This document shows, piece by piece, positions 8,975 to 57,151 of a DNA stretch of 64,000 nucleotides. The notes beneath the pieces were generated by a model. It worked only from the letters and a program-made list of their open reading frames with translations. It was not told the origin of the DNA and made no database searches. The DNA lies in IMG/VR virus record IMGVR_UViG_3300035698_005189, positions 34,095 to 98,094 of that record; one strand, given 5' to 3'. Position numbers and translations under genes: made by a program. Source of the stretch: a virus. Each line of letters begins with the position of its first letter. Within the stretch, counting starts at the first letter, position 1.

Positions 8975-9893
8975 CTTTGGTGACCTCGGCTACGACGCGA
9001 GCGGCGGCCTCATCGGCTGCAGCCTCCAGCATCGCGGAGAGGCGCTTGGCGTCCTCACTCAGTCGCTGAGCCCAGTTCTGGGCTCGTTGTACTACAGGAA
9101 TAGCTACGGCTGAGTCACCAGCGGCTCGTGTTTCGAGCCAGCGACGGAAGGCCCAGGCCTCAGGTTGTGCCTGCCCCATGGCTTCAGCGACGGCTTCAAC
9201 CAGGAGGGCGGTGCGCTCGTGTTCCCGGCTGGACCGGTCCCGGCGATTGTCTACCGCATCTTGAACAGCCCGACCCAAGACCTTCTCAGCGAAGGCTACC
9301 AGTCCGTCCTCGTCAATCGCCGCCCCAGCCAGGAGCCAGGAGGCCTTGCGCGGCACTGGCTTCGTCTCGCCGTGCAGGCCTGACCAGCCGGAAGCACGAC
9401 GGGCCACCGCGGCCAGGGTCTCACGGGGGACGGTGGAGCCGACGTCCCGCTGGGTGGCGTGCTTCTTGATGACGAGGCCACCACGGTTGAGCACCAGGAG
9501 CCCCCAGCCCTCTGGGACCTCGGAGATGTCGTTGACGACGCCCGGACCTACGGCGAACCAGCACTCGTCGCACATCTCCCTCATGAGGGCGCGCTTCTCG
9601 GGCTGGCGCAGCTCCCTGGTGAAGTCGCCACGCGATCTCTTGATCTCGTAGCCGATCATGCGGCCTCGGACAGCGCTCCAGCAGTGGATGGCCAGCACAT
9701 CCCACGACCGACTGGTCAGGCGGCCTTGGCCGGTGCCCGGAACGAACTCATCGAAGACGGCCCACTCACCGCGCTCCTGAGGGTGCCTGCCCCGTAGGAG
9801 GCCCCGTATGGCTCCCGTGCAGTCCACGGGCGGCCAGGGGTTTTTTGGGAGGCTCTTGTTTTTGACTGGGGGAGGGGGGACGGCCTTACCCAT
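8958..9893 (-). CDS. MmcB-like DNA-repair nuclease-family protein
   Basis: The start is set at the ATG at 9893 (MGKAVPPPPVKNKSLPKNPW). The core reads SWDVLAIHCW ... MIGYEIKRSRGDFTRELRQP then EKRALMREMCDECWFAV and VPEGWGLLVLN, matching the MmcB pattern (a PD-(D/E)XK-related fold with 'E.K.sr.DF..d.qp.K' and 'P.g.GLl'). MmcB proteins are linked to DNA repair. The C-terminal 130 residues are helical. The N-terminus carries a polyproline motif (VPPPPVK). It overlaps the cytosine methyltransferase gene by 8 nt, so a modification-linked role is possible. Confidence 0.65.
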   Translation of the reverse strand: MGKAVPPPPVKNKSLPKNPWPPVDCTGAIRGLLRGRHPQERGEWAVFDEFVPGTGQGRLTSRSWDVLAIHCWSAVRGRMIGYEIKRSRGDFTRELRQPEKRALMREMCDECWFAVGPGVVNDISEVPEGWGLLVLNRGGLVIKKHATQRDVGSTVPRETLAAVARRASGWSGLHGETKPVPRKASWLLAGAAIDEDGLVAFAEKVLGRAVQDAVDNRRDRSSREHERTALLVEAVAEAMGQAQPEAWAFRRWLETRAAGDSAVAIPVVQRAQNWAQRLSEDAKRLSAMLEAAADEAAARVVAEVTKDDDPD

Positions 9894-11166
9894 GGAGATC
9901 TCCCCACCAGCTGACCACGTCGCCTGCGATAGCCTCGCCGACCTGGACACAGACAGCGTTGCCGGTCCCAGCGAGTCGGTCCTGGCGGTCGAGGGTGTCC
10001 TCGGGTCCGCCCCAGGTGGACAGGCTGGGAATGTCAGCCCAGGCCCGGGAGGGCGCATCGGCCATCGACTCGCCCTCGGCGGCGGTCCAGCCTTGCGGGA
10101 ACCCCATGAGCCACTCGTTGTAGGAGGGCTGCATGATCCCGCCGTCGTCTGGGAGCTTCGAGGGCTTGCGCTGGGCCTCCAGAAGCTGAGGGCCGGCTCC
10201 GCCGAGTCGTGGGTCCAGGTAGACGCCCCGCTCAGCGATCTTGCGGGCCGTCCGGTGACAGGTCTCGGTCATCACGAATGACCACAGACGACGGGCCTCA
10301 GCGAGCATGGCCGGGTAGTCCGGGAGCTTGGCCTTGCGGACGGCCTCAGCGATCTTCTGGACGTGGTAGGCATGGCCTGCCGTCGTCAGGCTCAGGTAGT
10401 TGTAGGCCTCGAAGCTGAATCGTCCGAAGGCGGTCGGCGTCGGGATGCCGTTGTGGTACGCGACGACGGAGGCAGCCTCGTGGGCCGGGAGTGAGGTCAG
10501 GGCTCCCTTCTCCCGGATCAGCCACCACGGATCGCACGCGTGCTTCGGGGTCGGGTGGAGTACTCGGCAGGTCGTCAGGACCCCCGACTCCCAGCGACCA
10601 GCCAGGGGCCAGTTGCCGTGGCGGCCCGGGATGGCTGATGTCTGGTGAGACACCTCCCAGACGGGAGGGAGGCCACGCTGGCGACCGATGAGGAAGATCC
10701 TGACCCGCTGGTGGGGTCCGCCCACAGCCGACACGGACAGGGGCTGCCATTCTACATCGTAGCCGTTGTCGTCGAAGGTGGTGAGGACGGCCTCGAGGGT
10801 CCGGCCCGAGTCATGCGCCACGATGGCGAACGGGTTCTCAGCCACAATAGCTGTCGCGCCCAGGGACCGGCCCAGTCGGATGTAGTCCCCCCAGAGCCAG
10901 CGCTCGTCATCCTGGCCCTTGCGGGGCCCGGCGTTGCTGACGGGCTGACACGGTGGGCCGCCTGAGAGGATGTCGCACTCCCCAAGGTCGGCTGCCGTGA
11001 CCTTGGTCACGTCGGGGAAGCGGACCACATCGGGCCAGTGCCGTCCGAGCACACGACGAGGGTAGTCGCCCAGCTCGATAAAGGCCGTATGCGACCCGCC
11101 TGCGCGATGCCAGCCCAGGGCGAGGCCACCGACGCCAGCGAACGACTCTACTACGCGGGGCTTCAT
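9886..11166 (-). CDS. DNA (cytosine-5) methyltransferase
   Basis: The start is the ATG at 11166 (MKPRVVESFAGVGGLALGWH), which overlaps the upstream stop by ATGA; the longer Arg-rich N-terminus in that frame is a shadow. Conserved motifs are in order: I ESFAGVGGL (SAM binding), IV GGPPCQPVS with catalytic Cys73, VI ENP (111-113) and VIII HQRVRIFLIG. The 426-aa length is normal for the family. It would methylate C5 of cytosine in a specific site of phage DNA, either to evade host restriction or for regulation. No cognate restriction enzyme is seen nearby. Confidence 0.9.
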   Translation of the reverse strand: MKPRVVESFAGVGGLALGWHRAGGSHTAFIELGDYPRRVLGRHWPDVVRFPDVTKVTAADLGECDILSGGPPCQPVSNAGPRKGQDDERWLWGDYIRLGRSLGATAIVAENPFAIVAHDSGRTLEAVLTTFDDNGYDVEWQPLSVSAVGGPHQRVRIFLIGRQRGLPPVWEVSHQTSAIPGRHGNWPLAGRWESGVLTTCRVLHPTPKHACDPWWLIREKGALTSLPAHEAASVVAYHNGIPTPTAFGRFSFEAYNYLSLTTAGHAYHVQKIAEAVRKAKLPDYPAMLAEARRLWSFVMTETCHRTARKIAERGVYLDPRLGGAGPQLLEAQRKPSKLPDDGGIMQPSYNEWLMGFPQGWTAAEGESMADAPSRAWADIPSLSTWGGPEDTLDRQDRLAGTGNAVCVQVGEAIAGDVVSWWGDLHG

Positions 11167-30798: not shown

Positions 30799-30953
30799 GC
30801 ATCACCTCTGATCTCTGCGATAAGGACCTCACGCTCGGCTTCCGTGAGGGCTGGAGGTCCTGGCCTCTCTGGCGACACGGCCTGGCAGGCGGTGGCCTCC
30901 GGACAGGGCCCGCAGGCTCTGTCGTCGGGCCACCACCTACCGAAGCACCTCAG
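30795..30953 (-). CDS. Small Cys-rich ORF between SSB and RecA genes, start unclear
   Basis: A coding-like frame reads RCFGRWWPDDRACGPCPEAT then ACQ and ends EREVLIAEIRGDA at a TGA that overlaps the TTG start of the RecA-like gene. The Cys spacing (RACGPCPEATAC) suggests a metal site. No ATG, GTG or TTG lies in frame; CTG at 30953 is the first possible start. Either a rare start or a frame break is needed, so this is tentative. Confidence 0.4.
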   Translation of the reverse strand: MRCFGRWWPDDRACGPCPEATACQAVSPERPGPPALTEAEREVLIAEIRGDA

Positions 30954-32494
30954 AAGGGCATGTCGCCGCCCGGAGGGACCGGGGGGCCGCTCGCACCTCC
31001 CGCAGCCGGCGGGGCGGGCGGACCGGGTCGCGCTGGGGCGGCGGGTGGACCCGACGACGGAGCGGCTGGCGGTCCTGGGGGAGCCGCCCGGGCGGGCGGG
31101 GCGGGAGGCCCGGCGGGAGCCACGGGCGGCGTGGGGGGACCGGCTGCCACGGGAGGCGGGGTCGGGGGCGGGGCTGGCTTGCTCCGGGCCACGAGCGCGT
31201 CGATGGCGGCCTTGACGTTCGGCACGCTGGCGGCGGGAGCCCAGTCGGCCATCCCATCGGCCCAGACGAGGTTGGGGGCGTCGGGGGCGTCGAGCACCTG
31301 GGCTGCGATAGCGCCGGCCGACTGGTCGGTCTGCGCGTCACCCAGCCCAGCGAAGTGGTAGAGCTGCTCGGTCTCGGCGGGGGCAGGGGGACCCTCTGGT
31401 GCGTAGCCACCGCCTGGCGCGTAGCCCGGGGGACCGTTGGCGAGGGGAGCCGTGGGCGCGGGTCGCTGAGCATTGACAGCGGCAGCGATCTCGGGCACGG
31501 TACCGGCGTCGACCCAGCCAGCCATCCCATCCGTCCAGACGGTGTGGGTCGCTCCCTCGGCCGAGCCCAGGACGATGCGCGCCACACCGACGGGGTCGAG
31601 GCCGTCGAACTTGCCTCCGGTGCCGTTGTAGTGGTAGGTCACGACCGATGCCGGGGGCGCGGCTGCGGGCGGTGGGCCTGCGGCGGGACGATGGGGCGTG
31701 GCGGGCGGGGGTGCCCCGGCGTCACCCATGCTGGGGCCGGTGCCTCTGGGGTCGAGCTTCCGGGCGGCGGTGGTCAGCGCGGTTGGGTCGGCCGCCTTGA
31801 CCAGCGACGACAGCTCGAGGGCTGCCTGCAGGATGGGCAGGTAGGCGTCGTCGAGGCGGCTGGAGTCGCTGCCTTCGGTGACCGCGTATTTGACGTCCAT
31901 CGCACGAGCACCGGTCTTCTCGACCTCGATCAGGATGTCGCGTCCGCTCTGGTAGTCCTCGATAGGTCCCTTGGCGACACAGATCCGGATCAGCCCGGCC
32001 TGGACGGTGGGCGAGTAGCCCATCACCTTGGGAGCCACGACCCAGCCGCCCTGCCCGTCTTCGGTCCAGTGAGACTGCGGGTTGTCGAGGTCGATGACGT
32101 TGCAGTACAGGCGACCGCGTGCTCCGATCTCCTTGGCGACGGCTTCGTAGTCGGTCCGCTTGGCCGCGAAAAGCTCACGGCGGAGGGCGCAGATAGGGCA
32201 GACCTTGGGGGCGGCGCGGTTGTCGTGGTCATCGGGGCAGGGCAGGTTCTGGAGGGCCCCGTCGATCTTGACCTTGTGGACGTAGGTACTCACCCAGAAC
32301 TTCGCCTCCGGGTTCGCTGTGTCGGGTGCTCCGTCGGACCCCTGCGGGAGGCGGGGGATGACGCGGACGCGGTTCGTGGTTCGCTGTCCCTTGCTGGCGG
32401 GGCGCTTGAACTCGAACCACGAGAAGTCGCCTCCGCCGCCTCCGCCGCCTCGCTGGGCAAGGCGCTCTTGTTCCTGTTCGTAGACACTGGACAT
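30950..32494 (-). CDS. Single-stranded DNA-binding protein (gp32-like) fused to two GYF-like domains and a proline-rich tail (514 aa)
   Basis: Residues about 25-240 form a T4 gp32-like core: FSWFEFKRP, NRVRVIPRLP, KFWVSTYVHK, with zinc-type Cys at CPDD (86) and CPIC (99, 102). Two tandem GYF_2/DUF4339-like repeats follow: about 286-340 (TYHYNGTGGKFDGLD ... HTVWTDGMAGW) and about 378-434 (LYHFAGLG ... NLVWADGMADW). Each has the 'y.y...g... VW.dGM..W' hallmark. The rest (about 440-514) is almost only Pro, Ala and Gly. The core coats ssDNA; GYF domains elsewhere bind proline-rich peptides, so this protein may recruit proline-tailed partners. The normal gp32-type acidic tail is replaced. Confidence 0.8.
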   Translation of the reverse strand: MSSVYEQEQERLAQRGGGGGGGDFSWFEFKRPASKGQRTTNRVRVIPRLPQGSDGAPDTANPEAKFWVSTYVHKVKIDGALQNLPCPDDHDNRAAPKVCPICALRRELFAAKRTDYEAVAKEIGARGRLYCNVIDLDNPQSHWTEDGQGGWVVAPKVMGYSPTVQAGLIRICVAKGPIEDYQSGRDILIEVEKTGARAMDVKYAVTEGSDSSRLDDAYLPILQAALELSSLVKAADPTALTTAARKLDPRGTGPSMGDAGAPPPATPHRPAAGPPPAAAPPASVVTYHYNGTGGKFDGLDPVGVARIVLGSAEGATHTVWTDGMAGWVDAGTVPEIAAAVNAQRPAPTAPLANGPPGYAPGGGYAPEGPPAPAETEQLYHFAGLGDAQTDQSAGAIAAQVLDAPDAPNLVWADGMADWAPAASVPNVKAAIDALVARSKPAPPPTPPPVAAGPPTPPVAPAGPPAPPARAAPPGPPAAPSSGPPAAPARPGPPAPPAAGGASGPPVPPGGDMPF

Positions 32495-36617: not shown

Positions 36618-37272
36618 GGTCGTAATCCTCCACGCCTACTTCGGCGGCCTGGGTGATGGAAGCGATCCCGAGGGACCGCAGATGGGAGACGGCGGCTTCC
36701 TTGGCGTGGGTGAGCCGCGCCGAGACCCGCCGGTAAGCGGGGGAGCTGGGCCGGTCGTGTATGCCGACCATCCGAGCGATGGCGGTGGCAGGCACTTCTT
36801 CAACGTAGCGCAGGTGGAGCAAGGCGAAGGCAGCGGGCGGGAGGTTGCGGCGGAGGGCGTAGACGAGACCCTCGCAGGCGGCCTCAAACTCAGACTCTTC
36901 AGCCGTCTCGTCGCCACGGGCAGGGGTCGGGTCCACAACGTCGACCGGAGTCTCGGTCCCGTCGGGGGCTTTCTGCGTGGTCCCACGGTCGGACTCGGGT
37001 CGGCCTGCGGCCTGAGTCGCCCGGACGATGGTCAAGAAGCGCCGTTTGGCCACGGTCGCCAAGAGGGCGTCGGTGGGGAGCCTGCCGACGGCGGCGTACT
37101 CACGCCGGGACGCCACCAGGATCGCTTCCATGATCTCGGCCTCGACGTCTGTCGCGTCCATCCCGACGCGATGGGGGTGCCACACGCGCCGGGAGAGGAT
37201 GCGGGCCGACGACTGCCACGCCACCAGGACCTCTGTCTCGCCTGGGGCGGGGTTCCTGTCTTCTGGCCTCAT
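36598..37272 (-). CDS. Sigma-70-family (ECF-like) RNA polymerase sigma factor, probable
   Basis: Start at the ATG at 37272 (ATGA overlap with the VWA gene). Residues about 20-90 look like sigma region 2 (ARILSRRVWHPHRVGMDATD ... VEAEIMEAILVASRREYAAV), and residues about 130-200 like region 4 (LPPAAFALLHLRYVEEVPAT then AIARMVGIHD ... VSARLTHAKEAAVSHL), with 'LRYvEe' leading into a helix-turn-helix. The 224-aa size fits an ECF-type factor. It could redirect host RNA polymerase to the three promoter modules found here. The match is by pattern; a transcription-associated HTH protein is the alternative. Confidence 0.6.
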   Translation of the reverse strand: MRPEDRNPAPGETEVLVAWQSSARILSRRVWHPHRVGMDATDVEAEIMEAILVASRREYAAVGRLPTDALLATVAKRRFLTIVRATQAAGRPESDRGTTQKAPDGTETPVDVVDPTPARGDETAEESEFEAACEGLVYALRRNLPPAAFALLHLRYVEEVPATAIARMVGIHDRPSSPAYRRVSARLTHAKEAAVSHLRSLGIASITQAAEVGVEDYDREELEG

Positions 37273-39671
37273 CGCTGCCTCCTTCCACCTGTGAGCAATT
37301 CCACCACGCGACCAAGCAGGCATCCGGTCAGGTCGCCTGCGTTGGGGATTCCGATGTAGCCAGTCGTGGCCCGCGTCCCGTCGCCTTCGACTTCCGGGTA
37401 CAGCTCCGCAAACTTCGCTGCGTTGCTCGGGTGGCCGGCGTCGCCGACGCCAAAGCCATAGACCTCGATCCCGGCCTCGGACACCTGCCTGACGACTTCG
37501 GGGAGGTACCAGTTCTCTGCGATGTGATCGTCTGCGCCACACGGCTCTCCGTCTGAGATGACGATCAGGACAACGCGACGGTTGTGACCTCCCGCCACGG
37601 CGGCTGCCTTGGCTGCCCAGAGGACAGCCTCGCCGTCGAGGTTCTGACAGTAACCCGTGGCTGAGCCGATGGCGTCTCCGTTGTCGGTACGACCTGGGGC
37701 GGCGACATGCACGCTCATACGAAGGGGCCAGGTCTGGCGACTCCACCGCAGCCGCCCGTTCTCCTTGGGGTTGGACCCCAAGCCGACCCCTAACTCGGTC
37801 GTGTGCCCGAGCACCATATGGTCGATGTTGGCGGCACGCAGGGCGTCGTGCAGCTGCTTGGCGGTCCAGACGGCATGACTCATGGGGGTGTCAGGGCTAC
37901 TGCAGTCGCCCATGGAGCCAGAGCAGTCGATGAGGATACCCACGAACGCAGTCTCGCCGCGTGCGGTGGTCGTCTCGGTGTACTCAGCCAGCCCACCGGA
38001 CGCAAGGCTACCAAGGGACTCAACGTCGAGTTCGTCTCCGTCGTTGAGTCCACGCAGGGTGATGGTCCGGCGGGAGTCGACCAGGGCGGATCGGACGCGA
38101 TCAGTCAGCTGACGCGACCCGGCCCCGAAGAAGTCACTCAGAACGGACAGCACCTTCGCCCCGGCGGTCCTGGCGTCGAGATCCTTGTGTGGCTCCACGA
38201 CGACGTCGAGGGCGGCCGACTTGGGGTCAATGGTGTAGATCATAGCGCCTTGCTCTTCGGCCATTTTGCCCAGGATGATCTCGTCATCTTCCTTGGGGGG
38301 CTGTGGGGTCTCGGTCAGAGCCTCCTTGGCGGCCTCACGGGTTTCGTCTGAGACGGGCTCATCGGACTCGTCCTCTGCGTCGTCACCGGCCTCGGACTCA
38401 TCGGACTCATCCTCTGCTTCGTCACCGTCCTCGGACTCATCGGAGCCTTCGGATTCGTCACCGTCAGCTTCCTCGGAGCCTTCGCCTTCTTCAGATGTGC
38501 CGGTGTCCTCGGACACACCTTGCTCGTCGCCCTCAACGGGGTCGCCGTCTTCGTCACTGGCCTCGGACTCGTCGGGGTCCCCGGCCTCGTCACCAGCCTC
38601 GGACTCATCGGAGTCTTCGGACTCTTCGCCTTCCTCGGGCTCGCCGTCCTCACCACCATCCTCGGACTCATCGGAGTCTTCGGACTCTTCGCCTTCCTCG
38701 GGCTCGCCGTCCTCACCACCATCCTCGGACTCACCGGGCTCGCCGTCCTCGTCCTCGGCGTCGTCACCAGCCTCGGGCTCATCGGACTCATCCTCTGCTT
38801 CGTCACCGTCCTCGGACTCATCGGAGCCTTCGGATTCGTCACCCTCGGGGTCGGCGTCTTCTTCGGACTCATCGGACTCGTCCTGCTCATCTCCCTCGTC
38901 GGAGGCCTCGGACTCGTCACCGTCCTCGGAGTCTTCGCCCTCACCTTCTTCGTCCTCATCGGACTCGGCGGAGTCTTCGTCTTCTTCGGGCTCTTCGTCT
39001 TCTTCGGGCTCGGGGGGAGGGGGCGGCTCGGCCAGCTCTTCGAGGCGGATGTAGGTCGCCAGGGCAGCGCTGTAGGCGTCGTGGACCGTGACAGCCGCCA
39101 GGCCTCGAGCGACCTCAGGCTGGATGGCATCCCAGATGGGCCTGATATCCTGGTGGACTCCGTCATCGCTCAGCTGACCACGACCCACGCGGGTCACGCA
39201 CTGCACCAGGGCAGCGATCTGGCCGGCGCGACCTGGGTCGGTCGGGGCCCCGCGTCCGGTCTTCTCGAAGATGTAGGCGTTCTTGTCGTCGAGGTGAGGG
39301 GCTGCGCCCGGGTACTCGAGGACCCACAGGCGTTCGATGCGGAGGTCTTCGTACCCGTTGAAGATCATATGGACGGCGTTAGCGACCTTGACGCCACGCT
39401 CGGCTGCCAGATCCTTGCTGCGGGACACACAGGCGTCGCCTGTGAGCTTGGCGTGGGCAGTCTCGTGGTCGAGAAGGCCGCGCCAGGCGTTGACCACACG
39501 GGGGTCGGACGGCTCACCGACGAAGGTCGGCAGGGCGATCTGGTTGGTGGTCGGGTTGTACTTGGCCCGGGTACCGCCGACAGCGACAGTGACGTCCGAG
39601 CGACCCAGGAGGGTTCGGACGGTGCGCTCGGCGGCATTCTCGAGGAGGTAGGTGCGTCGGTTGGTTCTCAC
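37269..39671 (-). CDS. VWA-domain protein (CobT-like) with long acidic repeat region (800 aa)
   Basis: Residues 1-210 form a helical domain with an HExxH-like motif (LLDHETAHAKLT, His69-His73), typical of CobT-type VWA proteins. Residues about 215-440 are almost only Glu, Asp, Ser and Gly, with internal repeats. The C-terminal third is a VWA fold with a complete MIDAS: DCSGSM (582-587), Thr662 and Asp707 (VISDGE). CobT-type proteins pair with MoxR/CobS AAA+ ATPases in metal chelatase or chaperone machines; the partner is encoded at 40267-41256. It would act as a metal-dependent adaptor. Its target in a phage is unknown. Confidence 0.85.
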   Translation of the reverse strand: MRTNRRTYLLENAAERTVRTLLGRSDVTVAVGGTRAKYNPTTNQIALPTFVGEPSDPRVVNAWRGLLDHETAHAKLTGDACVSRSKDLAAERGVKVANAVHMIFNGYEDLRIERLWVLEYPGAAPHLDDKNAYIFEKTGRGAPTDPGRAGQIAALVQCVTRVGRGQLSDDGVHQDIRPIWDAIQPEVARGLAAVTVHDAYSAALATYIRLEELAEPPPPPEPEEDEEPEEDEDSAESDEDEEGEGEDSEDGDESEASDEGDEQDESDESEEDADPEGDESEGSDESEDGDEAEDESDEPEAGDDAEDEDGEPGESEDGGEDGEPEEGEESEDSDESEDGGEDGEPEEGEESEDSDESEAGDEAGDPDESEASDEDGDPVEGDEQGVSEDTGTSEEGEGSEEADGDESEGSDESEDGDEAEDESDESEAGDDAEDESDEPVSDETREAAKEALTETPQPPKEDDEIILGKMAEEQGAMIYTIDPKSAALDVVVEPHKDLDARTAGAKVLSVLSDFFGAGSRQLTDRVRSALVDSRRTITLRGLNDGDELDVESLGSLASGGLAEYTETTTARGETAFVGILIDCSGSMGDCSSPDTPMSHAVWTAKQLHDALRAANIDHMVLGHTTELGVGLGSNPKENGRLRWSRQTWPLRMSVHVAAPGRTDNGDAIGSATGYCQNLDGEAVLWAAKAAAVAGGHNRRVVLIVISDGEPCGADDHIAENWYLPEVVRQVSEAGIEVYGFGVGDAGHPSNAAKFAELYPEVEGDGTRATTGYIGIPNAGDLTGCLLGRVVELLTGGRRQR
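38400..38843. repeat. Tandem and dispersed repeats encoding the acidic region
   Basis: A 63-nt unit occurs twice in tandem (38598-38660 and 38661-38723), encoding an EDGGEDGEPEEGEESEDSDE-type block. A separate stretch of about 62 nt at 38400-38462 recurs at about 38781-38843. Copy number may vary between isolates through recombination. Confidence 0.8.
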
Positions 39672-39674
39672 AAG

Positions 39675-40265
39675 TCACTTCCTGGCTGCGTTGCGGCGGC
39701 GGAGGTAGGCGGCGTCATCGTCTTCGAAGGCTGGGACGTCGAGGTCGGGGGGCGGGGGGCCACCCTCGACCATGGGCGGCCGGTCGAAGGCATCGCACTT
39801 GCCGGAGGTGTGGGGGCCACCGCAGATCGAGCAGATGGGGCGAGGCGGGTTGCGCGACTTAGGCCCAACCGGCTCCACGCGGCTGCCGCCGATACCGTCG
39901 CTGACCTTGGCGTCGACCATCTTGGCAGCCTCGGCCCGGGCGAACTTGATGGCGGACTGACGGAGCAGGAAGTCGTGGTCGTGGCGAGCCCAGGTACCGG
40001 CGTAGCAGCCCGGATCACTGTAGCCGGCACCATCGGCGTCGTCGCTACAACCCGACCCGGTGAAGATCCAGTCAGCGACCTGAGCGAAGGTGCAGGGCTG
40101 GGTGGGCGTGGTGCCGTAGCTCTTCTCTTCGCCGGCGAACCAGTAGACCAGATAGGCCGACTCACGCTCGAGGACGACGGAAACCACGACCTGATTATCG
40201 AGGCCGATCACACGGTTGACGAAACACACAGCGGTAGCGTCAAGGGGTAGCCGAGTGACTCTCAT
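39675..40265 (-). CDS. Hypothetical protein with zinc-knuckle-like motif between AAA+ and VWA genes (196 aa)
   Basis: Beta-type N-terminus (VVVSVVLERESAYLVYWFAG), a His/Asp-rich middle, and CSICGGPHTSGKC, a CCHC-type knuckle, near residue 143; then a Pro/Asp-rich tail and basic end. It lies between the two genes of the chelatase-like pair with gaps of 1-3 nt, so it is probably a third component. No family recognised. Confidence 0.65.
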   Translation of the reverse strand: MRVTRLPLDATAVCFVNRVIGLDNQVVVSVVLERESAYLVYWFAGEEKSYGTTPTQPCTFAQVADWIFTGSGCSDDADGAGYSDPGCYAGTWARHDHDFLLRQSAIKFARAEAAKMVDAKVSDGIGGSRVEPVGPKSRNPPRPICSICGGPHTSGKCDAFDRPPMVEGGPPPPDLDVPAFEDDDAAYLRRRNAARK

Positions 40266-40266
40266 A

Positions 40267-41256
40267 TCATCCTCCAGCGAACAGGCGGCGGATCACTTCC
40301 GACGCGGCGGTACGCTCCTGCTCGGAGCGAATACGGTTGAGAAAGGCGTACTGTGCGGACTCGAGGACCCAAGCGGCCGAGGCCGTGTAGGTCCCGCCAC
40401 TGACGACGCCGATGGTGGCGGGCCCAGAAGCGACCCGGCGGCCCCAGTCAATGAGGGTACGGAACGACACACCACCAGACACCTGACCGCCACCTCGGAT
40501 GCGTTGGGCGACACGAATGAGGCCCTCCGCGTCCAGGTTGTGGAGGGCCGGCACTACGCCGGTAAGGGCGACAAGCTCGGAGTCGTTGTCGAGGTAGTCG
40601 ACCTGGAGGGTGGTCCCGAAGCGGTCGAGCATCGCTTCATTCGCGTCGGGGCTGGTCCCGGAGTACAGGTAGCGGTCGTTCTCCTGCCCCGCGCCGAGCA
40701 CGTTGTCGGTAGCGAATACCCGGAAGTCAGGATGACGATTGGCGTAGCGGACGGGGTCGGCATCCTCGAGCAGGACAGCACCGTCGGCCTCGAGGATGGG
40801 GAAAAGGCTCAGGGCGACATGCGGGGTCGCACCAGACAGCTCGTCGAGGACAAGCCACGCTCCCTCTTCCATCGCACGGGTGACGGGCCCGGGGACGAAC
40901 GTCGTGGCTCCGTCGGCGGCTGCCCGCTGGCCCTTGAGCTGCCGAACCGTCGTACCTACGTTCAGGTTCACGCGGTATACTGGGATATCGCAGCGAGCGG
41001 CAATCTGGAGGACGAGGGAGGTCTTACCCGACCCCTTGGGTCCAGCCAGCAGGACCGGCATGGGGGAGCCGTTGTCGTGTGGCCACGCGGACCATGCGAT
41101 CTCACGAACCAGCTTCTCACGAAAGACGTAGCCGGGGTCGATGGTCGGTACCTGGGGCGTGCGACCACCGGGGCGGCGGTGGAGGATGACGTCGATGTCT
41201 GGGATGGTGACGTGCGACGAGCGAGCCGGTGGAGGCGGGGGAGGTGTTCGGGTCAT
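40267..41256 (-). CDS. MoxR/CobS-type AAA+ ATPase
   Basis: Starts MTRTPPPPPPARSS, a polyproline tail. The Walker A is AGPKGSGKTS (71-80), Walker B WLVLDELSGA (Asp138, Glu139), sensor 1 RVFATDNVLGAGQEN and an arginine-rich LDRF motif. The order and insertions fit MoxR-family ATPases such as CobS, which form rings that work with VWA partners. The VWA gene lies just downstream. CobS-like genes are known in several phages, where their role is unresolved. Confidence 0.85.
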   Translation of the reverse strand: MTRTPPPPPPARSSHVTIPDIDVILHRRPGGRTPQVPTIDPGYVFREKLVREIAWSAWPHDNGSPMPVLLAGPKGSGKTSLVLQIAARCDIPVYRVNLNVGTTVRQLKGQRAAADGATTFVPGPVTRAMEEGAWLVLDELSGATPHVALSLFPILEADGAVLLEDADPVRYANRHPDFRVFATDNVLGAGQENDRYLYSGTSPDANEAMLDRFGTTLQVDYLDNDSELVALTGVVPALHNLDAEGLIRVAQRIRGGGQVSGGVSFRTLIDWGRRVASGPATIGVVSGGTYTASAAWVLESAQYAFLNRIRSEQERTAASEVIRRLFAGG

Positions 41257-41335: not shown

Positions 41336-42091
41336 CTACGCGGCGTCGAACTCGGCGTTGAGGGCGGCGGCCTTGGCGATGAGGCCACCAGGCCCGTAGA
41401 CGCGGTTGCTGGCGGCCTTCCGGAGCCAGCCTTCCTTCTCGTAGAAGCGGATGGGTCCCTTCGCGGATGCGACGAAGGCGTCCAGGCGCTTGAAGAACTC
41501 CCAGCCGCCGAGTGCCTCCCACTTCGCCGTCGAGACGGACCGCAGACGAAGCCGGACACCGTCGCAGACGTGGTCGAGGTCCTGGGCGTGGTCGGGGTGC
41601 TCCTGCAGCCAGTCCACGCGAGCGGCACGGGCGCGGGCCTTGGTGATGGCGCGGCGGAGGGCCGTCAGGGCTTCCTCAGCCGTGCCGGCCCCACGCACCA
41701 CGATGCCGTAGGTTTCGATGCAGTGGCTGCCGGTCCAGTGGTCACGACCGCCAGCGATATTGGCCAGCTTGAACTCGAAGCGGATGTGCGCATGGCCACA
41801 CAGCTGGCAGGAGACGTCTTCGCCACGGTGATCGTTGATGCACTCGGGGTCGGCCTCGTATTCGGACAGTGCCTGGGCGGCCAGGTCCTCATCCACGGTC
41901 GCGTAGATGTATTCGAGGTGAGCTGGCTCCAGGCGGTCGAGCTGCCAGTCCACGTCGGCCAAGCCGTCGATGACGATCCGCAGCTCGTCGGAGCAGCAGG
42001 CCGCGTAGCGGATCAGGTTGAGGGTGACGCGCCGGTGATGGGCGGGGGCCGTGTCGCTGACGACTGGGGGCACGGGGGGAACTGAGGTCAT
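41336..42091 (-). CDS. Hypothetical zinc-binding protein (251 aa)
   Basis: Start set at the ATG at 42091 (after AGGAGTACCC). A Pro-rich start (MTSVPPVPPVV) precedes VSCQLCGHAHIRFEFKLANI and HWTGSHCIETYGIVV, a Cys/His set also found in other phage proteins ('C.lCGh....f.l.n ... GshCi..y'). The C-terminal half is helical and basic. No named family. Confidence 0.65.
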   Translation of the reverse strand: MTSVPPVPPVVSDTAPAHHRRVTLNLIRYAACCSDELRIVIDGLADVDWQLDRLEPAHLEYIYATVDEDLAAQALSEYEADPECINDHRGEDVSCQLCGHAHIRFEFKLANIAGGRDHWTGSHCIETYGIVVRGAGTAEEALTALRRAITKARARAARVDWLQEHPDHAQDLDHVCDGVRLRLRSVSTAKWEALGGWEFFKRLDAFVASAKGPIRFYEKEGWLRKAASNRVYGPGGLIAKAAALNAEFDAA

Positions 42092-51210: not shown

Positions 51211-53031
51211 CTACGGCATGACGATGGCGAGCACACCGGCGACAGTGAGAAGGTCAAGGACCTCCTGCACTCCAGCGGCGGGATCGTACAGGTAGAGAGG
51301 ACCCGGGTCGGCCCCGGCCTCACCGGCGTCGGCCATGATCTCGGCTGACGGGGTGGTCGTGTAGTCGACCAGGACGTTGACAGGGAGAGGGACCTTGGTC
51401 GTGAGTGTCAGTCCAGCGACAGAGACCCTTAGCACGGCGGCTGTGCTCGACGCACTCGGGAAGTCCGGGCGCAGGGTCCAGCCGACACCAGGACTGGACG
51501 AGAATACCGCGCCGGTCAGCCTGACTTCGTAGTCGGAGATGACCTCAGCGACAGGGTAGGTACCGGCACCGGGGCCTGTTAGGATTACGACGGTGTGGCC
51601 TACCATCCAGCTTCTGAATATGTCGTATTCCGCCGTCAGGACGTCCGGATCGCCTACGTTGGTGCTCCCGGTCTCTACAGGCCGACCAAGGTAGGCATCC
51701 GTGAGGCCGTATACCTCCAAGATCTCCCACGTCTGGACCCCGCCGATGGTCACCCAGCCACCGACGTCGCTGGCTACCCACTCGCCTGTAGGCGAGATGA
51801 GGACTGTCGGCCGGATGGCGAGTGTATAGACGGTGAAGCCGTAGGATGTGTAGTTGGTGGCGGCCCGGGTAGGGTCGGCCGCGTCCCAGATCCCGTAGAC
51901 CACAGAAGGCGCATGAGCGATATCGACTGTGACTATGGATGTGCGGGGCTGGGATTCGCCGCCGACGAGGTAGCCCCGACCCGACGGGGCTGCGCCACTC
52001 GAGGCGGTGGAGCGGACGAAGACCCTGGAGGGGTAGGTGACTGGATCTTCGTAGAGTTCGTAATTTCCTACCCCCAGAAGGGCGTCGAGAACCTTCGTAA
52101 TCCCGTACACGGTGCCTGCGTCGGCGAAGGCCATCGCCATGATGATGAGCCGGTAGGTTGGGTCACCAACCCCTGCTGGGCGATTCAGGCCGTAGTTGCG
52201 GCCGATGACGTCCAGGTCTACGCCTTCGGCGTGAGCGACGAGGAACGACAGCCGGACAAGGTCGAGATCTGTCCGGGTGCGGGACACGTCCAAGCACGAC
52301 GCACCAGCCACGATGGCGATAGGGAACCCAGCAAGCCCTGTCTCTGAGTCCACCAGCCCCGTGAGGGTGGTTGCGGTGCGCCCGGAGTAGGCTCCCACGC
52401 GCCCAGAGACTGCCACCAGCCCAGAGTTGGGCCATCGGTGGGTACCGAGGACCGGGAGCGTTGAGACGCCAGCCAGGAGGTCTGAGGACGTTATCGTCAT
52501 CATCGCGCCCGAGGTCGCGTCGATCTCGTCTGCGATGGCTGACAGGAGGCTACCCAGTAGTCCCACCTCACCGACCGTAGCCACTTCGTCTTCTACGCGG
52601 TACGGACCAGCTGCCCGGGGAGGTGGATGGGCGGATCGCATACCATACAGGCGGGAAGCCCAGGCCCGGGGCACGACGGTAACGGCGGCTGTCGCTGTGA
52701 AGGTGGAGCCGTCTGAGCCGTCTACCCGCAGGTCGTAGGTCCCGGGAGCCACCGGGGGCGACACGAAGTCAGCCTCGAGGCCGTCGGACGTGTAGGCGAC
52801 GTTGCCGGACCCGACCACGCCCGAGTAGCAGGCTACGTCCACGCCCCCGACGATCAAGAAGAACTCGAGGCCAATCCCGGTAGGGAACGACCCCACAGCC
52901 GTAAGTTCCCAGCCTCCGTCGTCGGCGGGCTCACCATCGATGTGGTCGATGGCCAGCGGAGCGGTAGTCGGTCCAGACAGGATGGCGTCCGACAGAAGCT
53001 CTACCGCGTGGAGGGGCGGGAGGGTGAGCAC
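51211..53031 (-). CDS. Baseplate protein I-like (tail protein I-type), with N-terminal Ig-like region (606 aa)
   Basis: The N-terminal 120 residues look like an IPT/TIG or Ig-like fold (TYDLRVDGSDGSTFTATAAV). The middle reads SLLSAIADEIDATSGA ... LVRLSFLVAHAEGVDLDVIG then RNYGLNRPAGVGDPTYRLII, the pattern of P2 gpI/DUF2313-like baseplate proteins ('...D.lG..ygl.R..g.sD..YR.li'). It follows the J-like gene and one further gene in the usual J-then-I order. The C-terminal part is beta-rich. Confidence 0.65.
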   Translation of the reverse strand: MLTLPPLHAVELLSDAILSGPTTAPLAIDHIDGEPADDGGWELTAVGSFPTGIGLEFFLIVGGVDVACYSGVVGSGNVAYTSDGLEADFVSPPVAPGTYDLRVDGSDGSTFTATAAVTVVPRAWASRLYGMRSAHPPPRAAGPYRVEDEVATVGEVGLLGSLLSAIADEIDATSGAMMTITSSDLLAGVSTLPVLGTHRWPNSGLVAVSGRVGAYSGRTATTLTGLVDSETGLAGFPIAIVAGASCLDVSRTRTDLDLVRLSFLVAHAEGVDLDVIGRNYGLNRPAGVGDPTYRLIIMAMAFADAGTVYGITKVLDALLGVGNYELYEDPVTYPSRVFVRSTASSGAAPSGRGYLVGGESQPRTSIVTVDIAHAPSVVYGIWDAADPTRAATNYTSYGFTVYTLAIRPTVLISPTGEWVASDVGGWVTIGGVQTWEILEVYGLTDAYLGRPVETGSTNVGDPDVLTAEYDIFRSWMVGHTVVILTGPGAGTYPVAEVISDYEVRLTGAVFSSSPGVGWTLRPDFPSASSTAAVLRVSVAGLTLTTKVPLPVNVLVDYTTTPSAEIMADAGEAGADPGPLYLYDPAAGVQEVLDLLTVAGVLAIVMP

Positions 53032-54018
53032 TTAGATCTCCTTGGTGGAGGTGTAGTCGGTGAGACGAAGGCTCCCGTCATAGGTGCCGGTGACGGCATA
53101 CTTCCCGACCGCCAGTGCCCAGGGGGCGGAGTCGGCCAGGAGGTCGGCCTTGGAGTCGTACACCAGGACGATCCCTGCGGTGGGCTGGCCGTCGGCGTTC
53201 CAGGCCGAGTTGACGGCGCGCACGTTCGACTGACGGAGCCCAAGCATCCGCTTGAGGTCGTCACCCAGCGAGCCGCCGGTGTGACCAGCGACCGACTCTT
53301 CCAACATCTCGAACGCGGTCGGGTCGGACCCACTCTGGATGTACAGGAGATCGCCGATGGCGATGCCGCCGGAGATGGCGGCTCCGGTGAGGGTCCTGAT
53401 CTCGAACCCGTTCGGGCCGGCGCTAATGGTCTGGACTCGTACCGGAGTCAGGCGGGGTCCTGGCTGCGACAGGATACCGAAGCGGCCCTCATGGACTGCG
53501 GCCCGGGCGGGGGTGGCGGTGGCGGCGGCGAACTTGAGCCCAGGCACATCGTTGGCGGTGCAGACGTGTTGGTCGGTCACCTCGGAGAACGAGGTTAGGA
53601 GGTGGACTGCGCCCCACTGATCCGAGAAGGTGCTGGCCCCGAGGGTGTAGTCGGCTGGCTTCGCGGAGAAGACCTCATGGGCGGGGTCAAAGGCCAGCTC
53701 GATCGTGATGTACTGGAGGATGGGGGTCACAGCTTCTACGACGTGGAACGTGTAGCCGTCGGCGAAGGAACCAGTGTAGCCCAGCGACCCGCTTGGGATC
53801 AGGTACTCGTACACCCCAGGCAGGTTGACAGCGTCGGGCTCGGTCAGGGCGTTTACGACATAGGCGTTGGCCCAGGAGGCTCCACCAACCGCCAGATACT
53901 TTCCATCGGCGTTGCGGCGGATGGCGACCGTAGGGGCCAGGGCAGGAACTCCAGCGCCTGCTACGACGATGGCAAGTGAGACCTTGATCTTTTTCCATCG
54001 CTGGACTTCGGTAAGCAT
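53032..54018 (-). CDS. Hypothetical structural protein in baseplate operon (328 aa)
   Basis: TAAATG and TAAGTG junctions join it to its neighbours. The sequence is beta-rich (LGYTGSFADGYTFHVVEAVT, GDLLYIQSGSDPTAFEMLEE). Position between baseplate J and I-like genes suggests a baseplate or fibre-connector protein. No family recognised. Confidence 0.55.
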   Translation of the reverse strand: MLTEVQRWKKIKVSLAIVVAGAGVPALAPTVAIRRNADGKYLAVGGASWANAYVVNALTEPDAVNLPGVYEYLIPSGSLGYTGSFADGYTFHVVEAVTPILQYITIELAFDPAHEVFSAKPADYTLGASTFSDQWGAVHLLTSFSEVTDQHVCTANDVPGLKFAAATATPARAAVHEGRFGILSQPGPRLTPVRVQTISAGPNGFEIRTLTGAAISGGIAIGDLLYIQSGSDPTAFEMLEESVAGHTGGSLGDDLKRMLGLRQSNVRAVNSAWNADGQPTAGIVLVYDSKADLLADSAPWALAVGKYAVTGTYDGSLRLTDYTSTKEI

Positions 54019-55383
54019 TTAGATGACCTCGATGTTAGCGAGCGTGATGCGCGCCAGTTCGCCGTCACCGATGGTCACGTTGGCGGCTGGGGTTGCGAAG
54101 GTGACGTCGTAGACACCAGGGACGGCCTTAGCGAGTCGGATCAGCTCCGACAGGACGATATCGCCGTTGATCCCGAGGCCGTTGATATACCTCGAGATGG
54201 CAGCCGCGACGGCGACCTGAAGGGCGGACAGGTAGTAACCTGTGAGGGGGACAATGGTACACGATACTACCTGCTGGAGGACCACGGGCGGGAGCACGGC
54301 GCAGGCGATGCCGGCGGCCCGGTATCCGGGGTAGTTGGTCGGGTCGGACGGGTCGCCGTCCTCGATCTTCTGGACCTCAGCCAGCAAGCCGACCCACCAG
54401 GAGTATTCGACGTCGACGGCGTCGAGTGCCGTGAGGCCGGCTGGGTAGATCGTGGGGTCGAGCGTGATGAGTGAGCGCGGGCGATAGAGGGTGTAGTCTA
54501 CACCCTCGACCAGAGTCACAGCGTTCACGCGGAAGGTGACCACGGTTCCCGGGACGGTTGGCTTGTTGGCGAATGACATGCGGACCTCGCCGCCGCCGGC
54601 AGCTGCCAGGATCACCTCTGGGGAGCCGTAGTTGTCCTCGACATGCTCGATGGTCCCGGCCCCGTCGTCGACGTAGATATCGAACGACCCGACATACTCG
54701 ACCACCTCAGCCGACACTACCCGCCCGTATCCGTCCAGGCTGGCGAGGAAGGCGGCGTACTTGACGGCTTCGACGACACCCCGGGGGAGGGAGCGCACAT
54801 AGGCCCGGATACGGGATCTGAAGTCGGGGTCCGACTCTTCGTCGAGCCCACCAGTGGCGGCGGTCGGGTTTGTCCCGCCGGTGATACCTGAGATGGGGTC
54901 GATCTCGGTGATGGTGCCAGCGTCGGCGTTGGAGGCCAGCCCTGCCTCTGACGCCACGATACCGACAGGCGCGGTGACAGAGAGACCGGCTACCATGGTG
55001 GCGATAGCCGTCGTTACGAACTCGGCCCCGTCATCCGGAACGCGAACCTTCCAGCCGGCGGGGATATTGATGGTCCCGACGATGCCTGGTCGCGTGAAGG
55101 TGTAGGTGGCGGACGACTCCACAGCCCCAATCCGCTCCACTTCGTCTGGGTTGTAGTCCATCCCACGCTCGTCGAGGTCGTCTCCGACAGCCGTGTCGAT
55201 ATCCCAAGTCCTCTGGAGGCGACCGGCCTGGAAGTTGACGTCGTCGAGTTCTCGGGCAGTAGCGGTGAGGGCGGTGTGAATGCCACCACCTGGCTCGAGG
55301 TCGGTGAGGGTTGACCGGGCCACCACGCGGGAGGCCATTCGTCTGAGGATGCCTGCGTAGGTCTTGGGTTCGAATCGCGACAT
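54019..55383 (-). CDS. Baseplate J-like protein
   Basis: Start at the ATG at 55383 (overlap with the upstream stop). It shows the Baseplate_J layout: TWDIDTAVGDDLDERGMDYN (the 'a.g..LD..a...g..R' motif), IPAGWKVRVPDDGAEFVTTA, then TGGLDEESDPDFRSRIRAYV and LPRGVVEAVKYAAFLASLDG. The family forms the wedge of contractile-tail baseplates. Length 454 aa is normal. Confidence 0.85.
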   Translation of the reverse strand: MSRFEPKTYAGILRRMASRVVARSTLTDLEPGGGIHTALTATARELDDVNFQAGRLQRTWDIDTAVGDDLDERGMDYNPDEVERIGAVESSATYTFTRPGIVGTINIPAGWKVRVPDDGAEFVTTAIATMVAGLSVTAPVGIVASEAGLASNADAGTITEIDPISGITGGTNPTAATGGLDEESDPDFRSRIRAYVRSLPRGVVEAVKYAAFLASLDGYGRVVSAEVVEYVGSFDIYVDDGAGTIEHVEDNYGSPEVILAAAGGGEVRMSFANKPTVPGTVVTFRVNAVTLVEGVDYTLYRPRSLITLDPTIYPAGLTALDAVDVEYSWWVGLLAEVQKIEDGDPSDPTNYPGYRAAGIACAVLPPVVLQQVVSCTIVPLTGYYLSALQVAVAAAISRYINGLGINGDIVLSELIRLAKAVPGVYDVTFATPAANVTIGDGELARITLANIEVI

Positions 55384-55384
55384 A

Positions 55385-57151
55385 CTAAACCACCGCTGCA
55401 GTGAGGGGAATGGCCACCGCAGACCCGATGGGTATAACGTCCACATCGATGGCGAAGGAGTCAGCGTCGTCGGCCACTGTCACAAGGCCGATCCTCGCTA
55501 CGCGGGGGTCGCCAAGTATGGCCGTTCTGACGTCGAGGGAGAGAGTCGTCCAGAAGGCCTGGCTGGCGATGGCTCCCACCGCTCGGCGGACCCCGAAGGC
55601 TGGAGCCAGCGGCATCGCACCGCGCTCCGTCCAGAGGCGCATCTGGAGGGCCTGGGCCAGGTTGTCGACTCCGGTTGAGAAGGCGACATCCCGGTGGGTC
55701 TTGGGGTCCACCTTGAGGTCGACCTCCGGGCGGCCTGGCCTCGAGCGATGCGTCTCGACGTAGGAGAAGTCCACACCGAGCTGGTCCTGGTCCGGCCCAC
55801 CAGCCCAGGCAACGGAGGCGGCTGGCGTGTCGGAGGTCTTCGGGATGGACAGGGTACTGCCGGGGCCCAGCGTACCGGGTGCGCCGGTGCTGGATATGTA
55901 CGGATACTCGAGCCCGTTCACGATGACCAGCTCGTACCACCGGGCGGCCTCGCCCATCTGGCGGGCAGCTACCGACTGGAGGGTGTCGCCAGCGCGGAGG
56001 GTGTAGCGGAAGGTGGAGCCCCAGGCCGGGTAGTCTCGGCGGGTACCCACAGCCCCAGCCTCGAGCCGGTCGGCGTCGGTGGCGCGGGGCGCGGTGGACT
56101 CCATATCGGCCAGGCTGGTTGATGGACCCGAGAGGGCGGCGGCGGTGAGTTCGGAGGTTGGTGTGGAAGCCGGCCCAGCCTCCGCCCGGTCAAGGGACGC
56201 GATCTCTTCGTCTGTGTTGACCCGGAAGGCTGAGGCTGAGATGATCGCGTCTACCCCGTCTCCCGCGTCCAGGGCGAGCGCCCTGACAGAGGCGAAGGCT
56301 TCGTCATCATCGAGTAGGGCAACGAAGGCGTCGAGGGCGACCTGGGCGTCGGCCAGGAGGTCGCGGATCGAGTCGAGGGTGGAGACGCCGCCGTCGATGA
56401 AGTCCTGCGCCGACGATACGACCTGCTGGCAGAGGGTGAAGACCGTATCCACGGTCGCTACCGCGTATCGGATCTCGCCGAGCACCGCGCTACACTCCTG
56501 TACGAATGAGGCCACCAGGGCGACCCCGAACTGGACCGCAGCCACGGCGTCGGACAGCCAACCCAGGAGAGACGACGCGGGCTCAGGGATCACGATCTTA
56601 TCGGCTTCCCCAATCCCCTTCATATGGAACTCGTACGGATACTGCATCCGACGCGCCGTCTGGCGGTCCACGTTGATGACCTCTGGCACTACGACCCAGT
56701 GATCGTCGGTCTTCAGGTCATGCCAGACAAGGTAGGTGCCGTCCGCTGTGAGCGGGTCGGACTTGAGGCCTGCGTAGGCAAGAAACACGTTGCGGATCAG
56801 GCGTCGGGTCCACCACGGCCCCGACAGGGCTGCGCCTGGTGCGGGCTCTGGCAGGTAGGTCGTGTCGTAGCCGGTCTTCGGCTGGAGACCAAACGTGCCG
56901 GCGACAGAGATCTCGGTCCAGAGCAGGCCGCGTTCCTCAGCAATGACTCCACCCAGCGTAGGGGTGAGGGACTGGCGGAGGACGTGGCTGATGTGGAGGG
57001 ACTCTGGGCCCACTGGGAGGACGAACACGCCTCCACCATCGAGCGGGTTCGGCGTCACGATCTCGAGGGCGTACGGGAACTCCCCGACATACCAGGAGTC
57101 ACCTGTGGCACGGCGTCTGGAGATCTCTCGTACTTGTTCGACGAATCCCAT
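55385..57151 (-). CDS. Tail/baseplate protein fusing a LysM domain to a gp25-like domain (588 aa)
   Basis: Start at the ATG at 57151. The N-terminal 200 residues (PYALEIVTPNPLDGGGVFVL and on) resemble LysM-carrying tail-tube-terminator proteins. Residues about 381-436 are a LysM (FRYTLRAGDTLQSVAARQMG ... GSTLSIP). Residues about 475-588 (DVAFSTGVDNLAQALQMRLW, VTVADDADSFAIDVDVIPIG) resemble the gp25/W baseplate wedge protein. These are separate genes in most myophages, so this is a fusion. The middle 200 residues are helical. Confidence 0.7.
   Translation of the reverse strand: MGFVEQVREISRRRATGDSWYVGEFPYALEIVTPNPLDGGGVFVLPVGPESLHISHVLRQSLTPTLGGVIAEERGLLWTEISVAGTFGLQPKTGYDTTYLPEPAPGAALSGPWWTRRLIRNVFLAYAGLKSDPLTADGTYLVWHDLKTDDHWVVVPEVINVDRQTARRMQYPYEFHMKGIGEADKIVIPEPASSLLGWLSDAVAAVQFGVALVASFVQECSAVLGEIRYAVATVDTVFTLCQQVVSSAQDFIDGGVSTLDSIRDLLADAQVALDAFVALLDDDEAFASVRALALDAGDGVDAIISASAFRVNTDEEIASLDRAEAGPASTPTSELTAAALSGPSTSLADMESTAPRATDADRLEAGAVGTRRDYPAWGSTFRYTLRAGDTLQSVAARQMGEAARWYELVIVNGLEYPYISSTGAPGTLGPGSTLSIPKTSDTPAASVAWAGGPDQDQLGVDFSYVETHRSRPGRPEVDLKVDPKTHRDVAFSTGVDNLAQALQMRLWTERGAMPLAPAFGVRRAVGAIASQAFWTTLSLDVRTAILGDPRVARIGLVTVADDADSFAIDVDVIPIGSAVAIPLTAAVV

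Follow-up and report, generated by a model that had tools for sequence, protein, structure and literature searches.

The window analyzed here, a stretch of 64,000 nucleotides corresponding to positions 34095–98094 of a 98,094-base virus record (IMGVR_UViG_3300035698_005189), has a GC content of 66% and carries nearly all of its predicted genes on the minus strand. Among these is a tight minus-strand operon, with intergenic gaps of 1 and 3 bases, that encodes a MoxR/CobS-like AAA+ ATPase of 329 aa (41256–40267), an orphan middle protein of 196 aa (40265–39675) and an 800-aa CobT-like VWA protein (39671–37269). An earlier note on this DNA had described these as three adjacent genes spanning 37269–41256, which is correct for the genes but not for the end of the operon. 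The operon continues into a gene for a σ70-like protein of 224 aa (37272–36598), which overlaps the VWA gene by 4 bases, and a gene for a Cys-rich protein (36617–36183) with the motif P-x-C-[YF]...C-x2-C...C, followed by a small gene and a DNA polymerase I-type polymerase (35165–33168; phrog_17, 1.6e-82). The σ70-like protein has no Pfam match of its own; its assignment rests on a homolog in the related phage L099, which matches Sigma70_r4_2 at 1.3e-4, below the cut-off, and on an hhalign match (93.8%) to annotated σ-factors encoded beside Rhizobium phage CobS. The Cys-rich protein is kept in the relatives L017, L019, and L099 and weakly matches (hhalign, 62.7%) proteins that Rhizobium and Pseudomonas phages encode between CobS and the DNA polymerase. 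Downstream, past the polymerase, lie genes for an SSB-like protein, a UvsX-like recombinase, and an SMC/SbcC-like ATPase, while upstream are a primase and a DnaB-like helicase (45579–43112; phrog_47, 3.9e-21, and phrog_19, 1.5e-28). The surroundings of the AAA+/VWA pair are thus a replication–recombination block, and the baseplate genes (51211–57151) are located away from it.

By its sequence, the ATPase is MoxR/CobS-like, matching AAA_5 (E 1.9e-22) and phrog_249, which is annotated “porphyrin biosynthesis” (E 1.5e-45). It contains a Walker A motif, GPKGSGKT (residues 72–79; 41020–41043 on the minus strand), of which G72, G75, G77, and K78 are invariant in the ATPase alignment, a Walker B motif, WLVLDE, at residue 134, and the motifs ATDN at 182 and LDRF at 210, such that the Walker A, Walker B, sensor 1, and Arg finger residues of an AAA_5-type P-loop ATPase are all present. 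The VWA protein matches CobT_C (E 4.4e-10; 40 bits against a cut-off of 21) and phrog_1576 (E 4.7e-33), and falls just short for the CobT N-terminal family, with 25 bits where the cut-off is 26.1 (15.4 bits in the genome search). PDB profile matches for the pair include CobS, CobT, midasin, and NorQ. These family matches and the intact motifs bear out the assignment of the two genes to a MoxR/CobS ATPase and a CobT-like VWA partner, and the MIDAS of the latter is indeed intact, with the sequence DCSGS at residues 582–586 (about 37914–37928) in a VWA domain at 37440–37967. An acidic low-complexity linker of 260 residues (216–475; 38247–39026), 55% Glu plus Asp, joins this domain to an N-terminal domain (residues 1–215; 39027–39671) that is predicted with good confidence (AlphaFold mean pLDDT 89.8, pTM 0.87) to be zincin-like. 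One protein therefore carries both an HExxH metallopeptidase-like domain, at its N terminus, and a VWA domain with a MIDAS, and its gene is paired with a MoxR gene.

The HExxH motif is the key feature of the VWA protein, and the earlier note, which had mentioned an HExxH-like motif, underrated it. The sequence is HETAH at residues 69–73 (39453–39467), and it is accompanied by NGYED, an NxxED motif, at residues 105–109 (39345–39359), in which E108 is the candidate third zinc ligand. Across 42 aligned phage N-terminal domains, neither D68-H69-E70-x-x-H73 nor E108-D109 varies; because the loci of this alignment were retrieved with a pattern that itself contained HExxH, the count is biased for that motif but not for E108 and D109. 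When CobT partners were located via the ATPase, which introduces no motif bias, HExxH was present in 17 of 18 proteins with an available N-terminal domain (L113 and L114 counted as one and the fragment L111 left out), and NxxED in most, if not nearly all, of them. The HExxH carriers include proteins of Gordonia phages, cyanophages, and a Vibrio phage with barely any sequence similarity, such that the pairing of HETAH with N105xxE108D109 exceeds what chance would produce. The CobT partner of the Vibrio phage has HExxH and no NxxED, and that of Pseudomonas phage hairong (L008), an isolated lineage, has lost HExxH (DSEIAK/NPLES). A Foldseek search of the domain against the PDB gave no match under E 0.001, and the fold argument consequently rests on VIA-align, in which zincin peptidases occupy almost every one of the first 22 rows (Z 3.8–6.4), and on a viral structure library, in which the matches are phage CobT/VWA proteins. 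The VIA-align neighbors comprise BlaR1, an M48-like peptidase, ArdC, selecase/jannalysin/abylysin, IrrE/PprI, Wss1, and M1 peptidases. Z values of 4–6 are modest, and the fold alone shows no function; nevertheless, HExxH...NxxED within a predicted zincin-like fold constitutes a complete gluzincin signature and, apparently, an intact zinc-protease site. The phage CobT profile also picks up the anti-CRISPR entry AcrIIA26 (PDB 9zq6, chain B) at its NxxED helix (E 0.006), which may be chance.

Cellular CobT differs at precisely this site. Among 71 cellular cobalt-chelatase CobT proteins taken from genomes, mostly alphaproteobacterial, none contains HExxH in its first 250 residues, whereas all 71 have the MIDAS. 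The phage CobT profile aligns over the N-terminal domain of solved cellular CobT, which has no HExxH there, and, where inspected, cellular proteins carry RGLGDSMAL-type and DAVEQARVE-type sequences at the motif sites. With HETAH in place, the window protein does not fit the cellular N-terminal form. In a tree of 81 sequences, cellular CobTs form one long branch beside broad phage diversity, and the window protein clusters with L099, L017, and L019. Since HExxH occurs on both sides of the cellular branch, the most economical account is that the cellular line lost the motif. Given an unrooted tree with long branches, the view that cellular CobT descends from a peptidase is an argument from parsimony, not proof. 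One entry among the loci, L146, bears the title Bacillus subtilis SK6B4; its CobT shares 72% identity with the Brucella-type query, and the entry is therefore probably mislabeled or contaminated.

The middle protein had been described as an undescribed zinc-knuckle protein. The first half of this description holds, as no Pfam, PHROG, or phage match was obtained and the libraries searched contain no family for it. The second does not: the motif CX2CX3HX4C (residues 145–157; 39795–39833), a residue shorter than the classical knuckle CX2CX4HX4C, is private to the window phage and absent from the four homologs (in L101, L017, L019, and L099; 16–20% identity to the window copy in a weak alignment), and a zinc-knuckle identity was therefore rejected as misdescribing the family. 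What the middle proteins share is a C-terminal patch of the DD[FY]xxRR type, and the tail of the protein, which is acidic, is conserved. Thus, the gene keeps its position while its sequence diverges in all five clade phages, and it is absent from the other phages examined. A profile of the middle proteins found nothing convincing beyond the clade, which gives no support to conservation of this gene next to other phage CobS/CobT pairs and speaks against a homolog between cobT and cobS in cyanophages, an idea that was rejected. The AlphaFold model of the middle protein is poor (pLDDT 51.8), making any role assigned to it conjectural. The middle protein of L099 (L099:9975–11258) is longer, at 428 aa, and has a weak C-terminal match to a WGR domain (E 0.0039); WGR domains are known for nucleic-acid binding.

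Relatives of the operon were recovered from IMG/VR with a CobT alignment and with a narrow ATPase alignment; no matches were obtained when IMG/VR was scanned with single sequences of the ATPase, the middle protein, or the polymerase, and the narrow ATPase alignment retrieved no cellular relatives from genomes. A tblastn search with the full 800-aa VWA protein found no phage; its C-terminal part does find phages. The closer relatives are L017/L018, which are nearly identical, L019/L098, L099/L100, and L101, and the ATPase is 50–58% identical to those of L017, L019, L099, and L101. Each has the ATPase, middle, and VWA genes in the order of the window and, where the contigs extend, the σ-like gene, the Cys-rich gene, the small gene, and the polymerase come next. 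Co-occurrence in related phages had been set beforehand as one of the tests on which the earlier proposal would stand or fall, and the AAA–middle–VWA–σ–Cys-rich order recurs.

The association with replication genes extends beyond this clade. A gene for a polymerase, primase/helicase, clamp/loader, or ligase lies within 2.5 kb of 53 of the 64 nonredundant CobS/CobT pairs and within 5 kb of 55. The remaining nine have no replication gene within 5 kb by the query set used, although one of these, Vibrio phage L013, has an annotated helicase and polymerase about 2.6–4 kb away that the queries missed. Because 40 of the 53 replication-linked pairs belong to one Pol III α lineage, the independent cases are few, but they involve unrelated polymerases: the window clade (PolA-type), the Rhizobium/SSU5/Nickievirus phages (Pol III α), Zobellviridae, T4-like cyanophages and, more loosely, Gordonia phages. 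In the T4-like cyanophages the pair adjoins the sliding clamp and clamp loader, and in Rhizobium phages a σ70 gene directly follows cobS, matching the σ-like gene of the window. In L003 (AB571791.1), a genomic-island record, a CobS-like ATPase without a CobT match lies beside the ssb and bet recombination genes, and in L014, L015, and L016 (Herelleviridae and a mycobacteriophage), where there is likewise no CobT match, a protein of ~280 aa adjoins the CobS-like ATPase.

The earlier note considered the role of phage CobS/CobT pairs unresolved. That such pairs exist in phages is correct, but interpretations have been published, and they conflict. In group 2.2 jumbo phages, a MoxR gene is paired with a metallopeptidase–vWA gene, for which virion assembly with peptidolytic processing has been proposed (PMC7824862). 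Viral CobST has elsewhere been read as chelatase subunits that hijack the host CobN, with CobS/CobT-like genes core in cyanophages and the cyanophage “peptidase” label called a mis-annotation (PMC8651126). Compared by published description, the jumbo-phage pair resembles that of the window in having a MoxR ATPase and a vWA protein with an N-terminal metallopeptidase domain, whereas the window record is only 98 kb, has a third gene between the two, and presents a replication rather than a structural neighborhood. The phage and archaeal-virus CobST cluster (PMC8651126; phrog_249, phrog_1576) represents the same families by profile and predicted structure, but the motif data of the present analysis favor a peptidase over the chelatase reading. 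The cellular aerobic cobaltochelatase CobS–CobT (PDB 9uka, 9ujv) shares the AAA+ plus VWA composition and an alignable CobT N-terminal domain, yet it lacks HExxH and works with CobN. NorQ–NorD offers a mechanical model in which rotation of the VWA domain by the AAA+ ring stretches a linker (PMC13036017). That system likewise combines a MoxR hexamer (a hexamer being assumed for the window ATPase by analogy) with a VWA protein bearing an N-terminal domain and a linker; it differs in serving iron insertion into nitric oxide reductase, and in the account drawn on here no zincin domain is reported. Finally, the vWA–MoxR–VMAP ternary conflict systems (PMC7159879) also comprise a vWA protein, a MoxR protein, and a third protein. 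VMAP is distinguished by the domain at its C terminus and by its organization in three parts; Pfam searches found no family in the middle protein and none above the cut-off in its relatives, and the phage context is different.

Collectively, these data lead us to favor, with a probability of roughly one half, a model in which the operon encodes a MoxR-type motor, a metallopeptidase-like zincin/linker/VWA partner, and a lineage-specific accessory that together remodel or cut a target belonging to the replication program. By analogy with the solved NorQ–NorD complex, the ATPase would act as a hexamer that grips and turns the VWA domain of its CobT-like partner, and this turning would pull the linker and so move the N-terminal domain. 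A target might be captured by the VWA/MIDAS site or by the middle protein, which could serve as an adaptor or substrate-recruiting factor, and would then be remodeled and, since the HExxH...E site is intact, probably also cut, presumably with a bound zinc ion. The neighborhood suggests that the likeliest target would be a phage protein of the replication or transcription program, or a host protein on that DNA. Remodeling or cleavage in the replication program is preferred because the pair adjoins replication genes both here and in most relatives, and the motif and fold data favor a metallopeptidase reading for phage CobT at large. A remodeling machine, as the earlier note had suggested, is thus the likeliest reading.

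Several other functions can be envisaged. The pair might assemble and trim structural proteins as a virion-assembly chaperone with a processing peptidase. This is the role proposed for the MoxR–vWA pair with an N-terminal metallopeptidase in the group 2.2 jumbo phages, and an archaeal-virus MoxR–vWA system cited in the same work is required for tail assembly (PMC7824862). We nevertheless consider it unlikely, since the gene neighborhood favors replication: the genes lie among replication genes and away from the baseplate genes in the window and most relatives, and in cyanophage Syn33 the pair precedes the sliding clamp and clamp loader. A role in antagonizing the host, in which the machine would cleave or unfold host regulators or defense proteins during takeover, seems distinctly improbable; fold neighbors of the zincin-like domain include the antirestriction protein ArdC and IrrE/PprI, and host proteins have been put forward as targets of phage zincins with a limited distribution (PMC7824862), but a core position and a conserved order within a replication operon are unusual for a defense antagonist.

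A more conservative interpretation is that the machine only remodels, with the zincin domain binding a metal or a peptide without cutting. Protein cutting is not known for either NorQD (PMC13036017) or cellular CobST, cellular CobT retains the domain without the motif, and the motif loss in hairong indicates that catalysis is dispensable at least in that phage. On the other hand, HExxH and NxxED are kept across extremely divergent phage proteins, a retention that would be hard to explain other than by selection on catalysis or at least on metal binding, and we regard a purely noncatalytic chaperone as rather improbable. Auxiliary cobalamin synthesis, in which phage CobST would borrow the host CobN for cobalt insertion, has homology to CobS and CobT in its favor and has been proposed for viral CobST (PMC8651126). 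The earlier note had seen no cobalamin genes, and the 98-kb record, which may be a fragment, encodes neither CobN nor a ribonucleotide reductase. Moreover, the phage protein departs from cellular CobT exactly at the peptidase site, and its context is replication. We therefore consider this reading very unlikely; the phage set is probably not a cobalt chelatase, and “chelatase” probably a misnomer.

The operon is real and conserved and its architecture is already known, with a peptidase function that is putative on the evidence of motifs and a modeled fold. What is new here is that phage CobTs share the signature, that cellular CobTs lack it, that the replication-linked block includes a σ-like gene, and that the third gene is lineage-specific. 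Tailed phages commonly carry CobS/CobT-like genes, whose annotations refer to cobalamin or porphyrin biosynthesis; if the genes encode a true AAA+-driven metallopeptidase–VWA machine, these metabolic annotations are wrong. Such a machine would also suggest how a chelatase subunit could relate to a protease-like ancestor. Changing one residue, E70 of the window protein or its counterpart in a cultured phage, would tell the hypotheses apart. A bolder and doubtful extension would make phage CobST a zinc protease that is widespread, powered by ATP, targeted through its VWA domain, and active at the replication complex, with cellular CobT descended from it by loss of catalysis and the fast-evolving adaptor of this clade selecting the substrate.

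Three other genes of the window may be mentioned. The protein encoded at 41336–42091, adjoining the ATPase gene, has a segment resembling a zinc finger, with Cys pairs, and a W-T-G-S-x-C-I motif; it is conserved in the clade and belongs to no family. The SSB-type (gp32-like) protein (30950–32494) matches GYF_2 (E 5.7e-8) within the Pro-rich half at its C terminus, where such a domain is unusual, and a DNA methyltransferase (phrog_116, E 1.8e-48) is encoded elsewhere in the genome, at 9886–11166.
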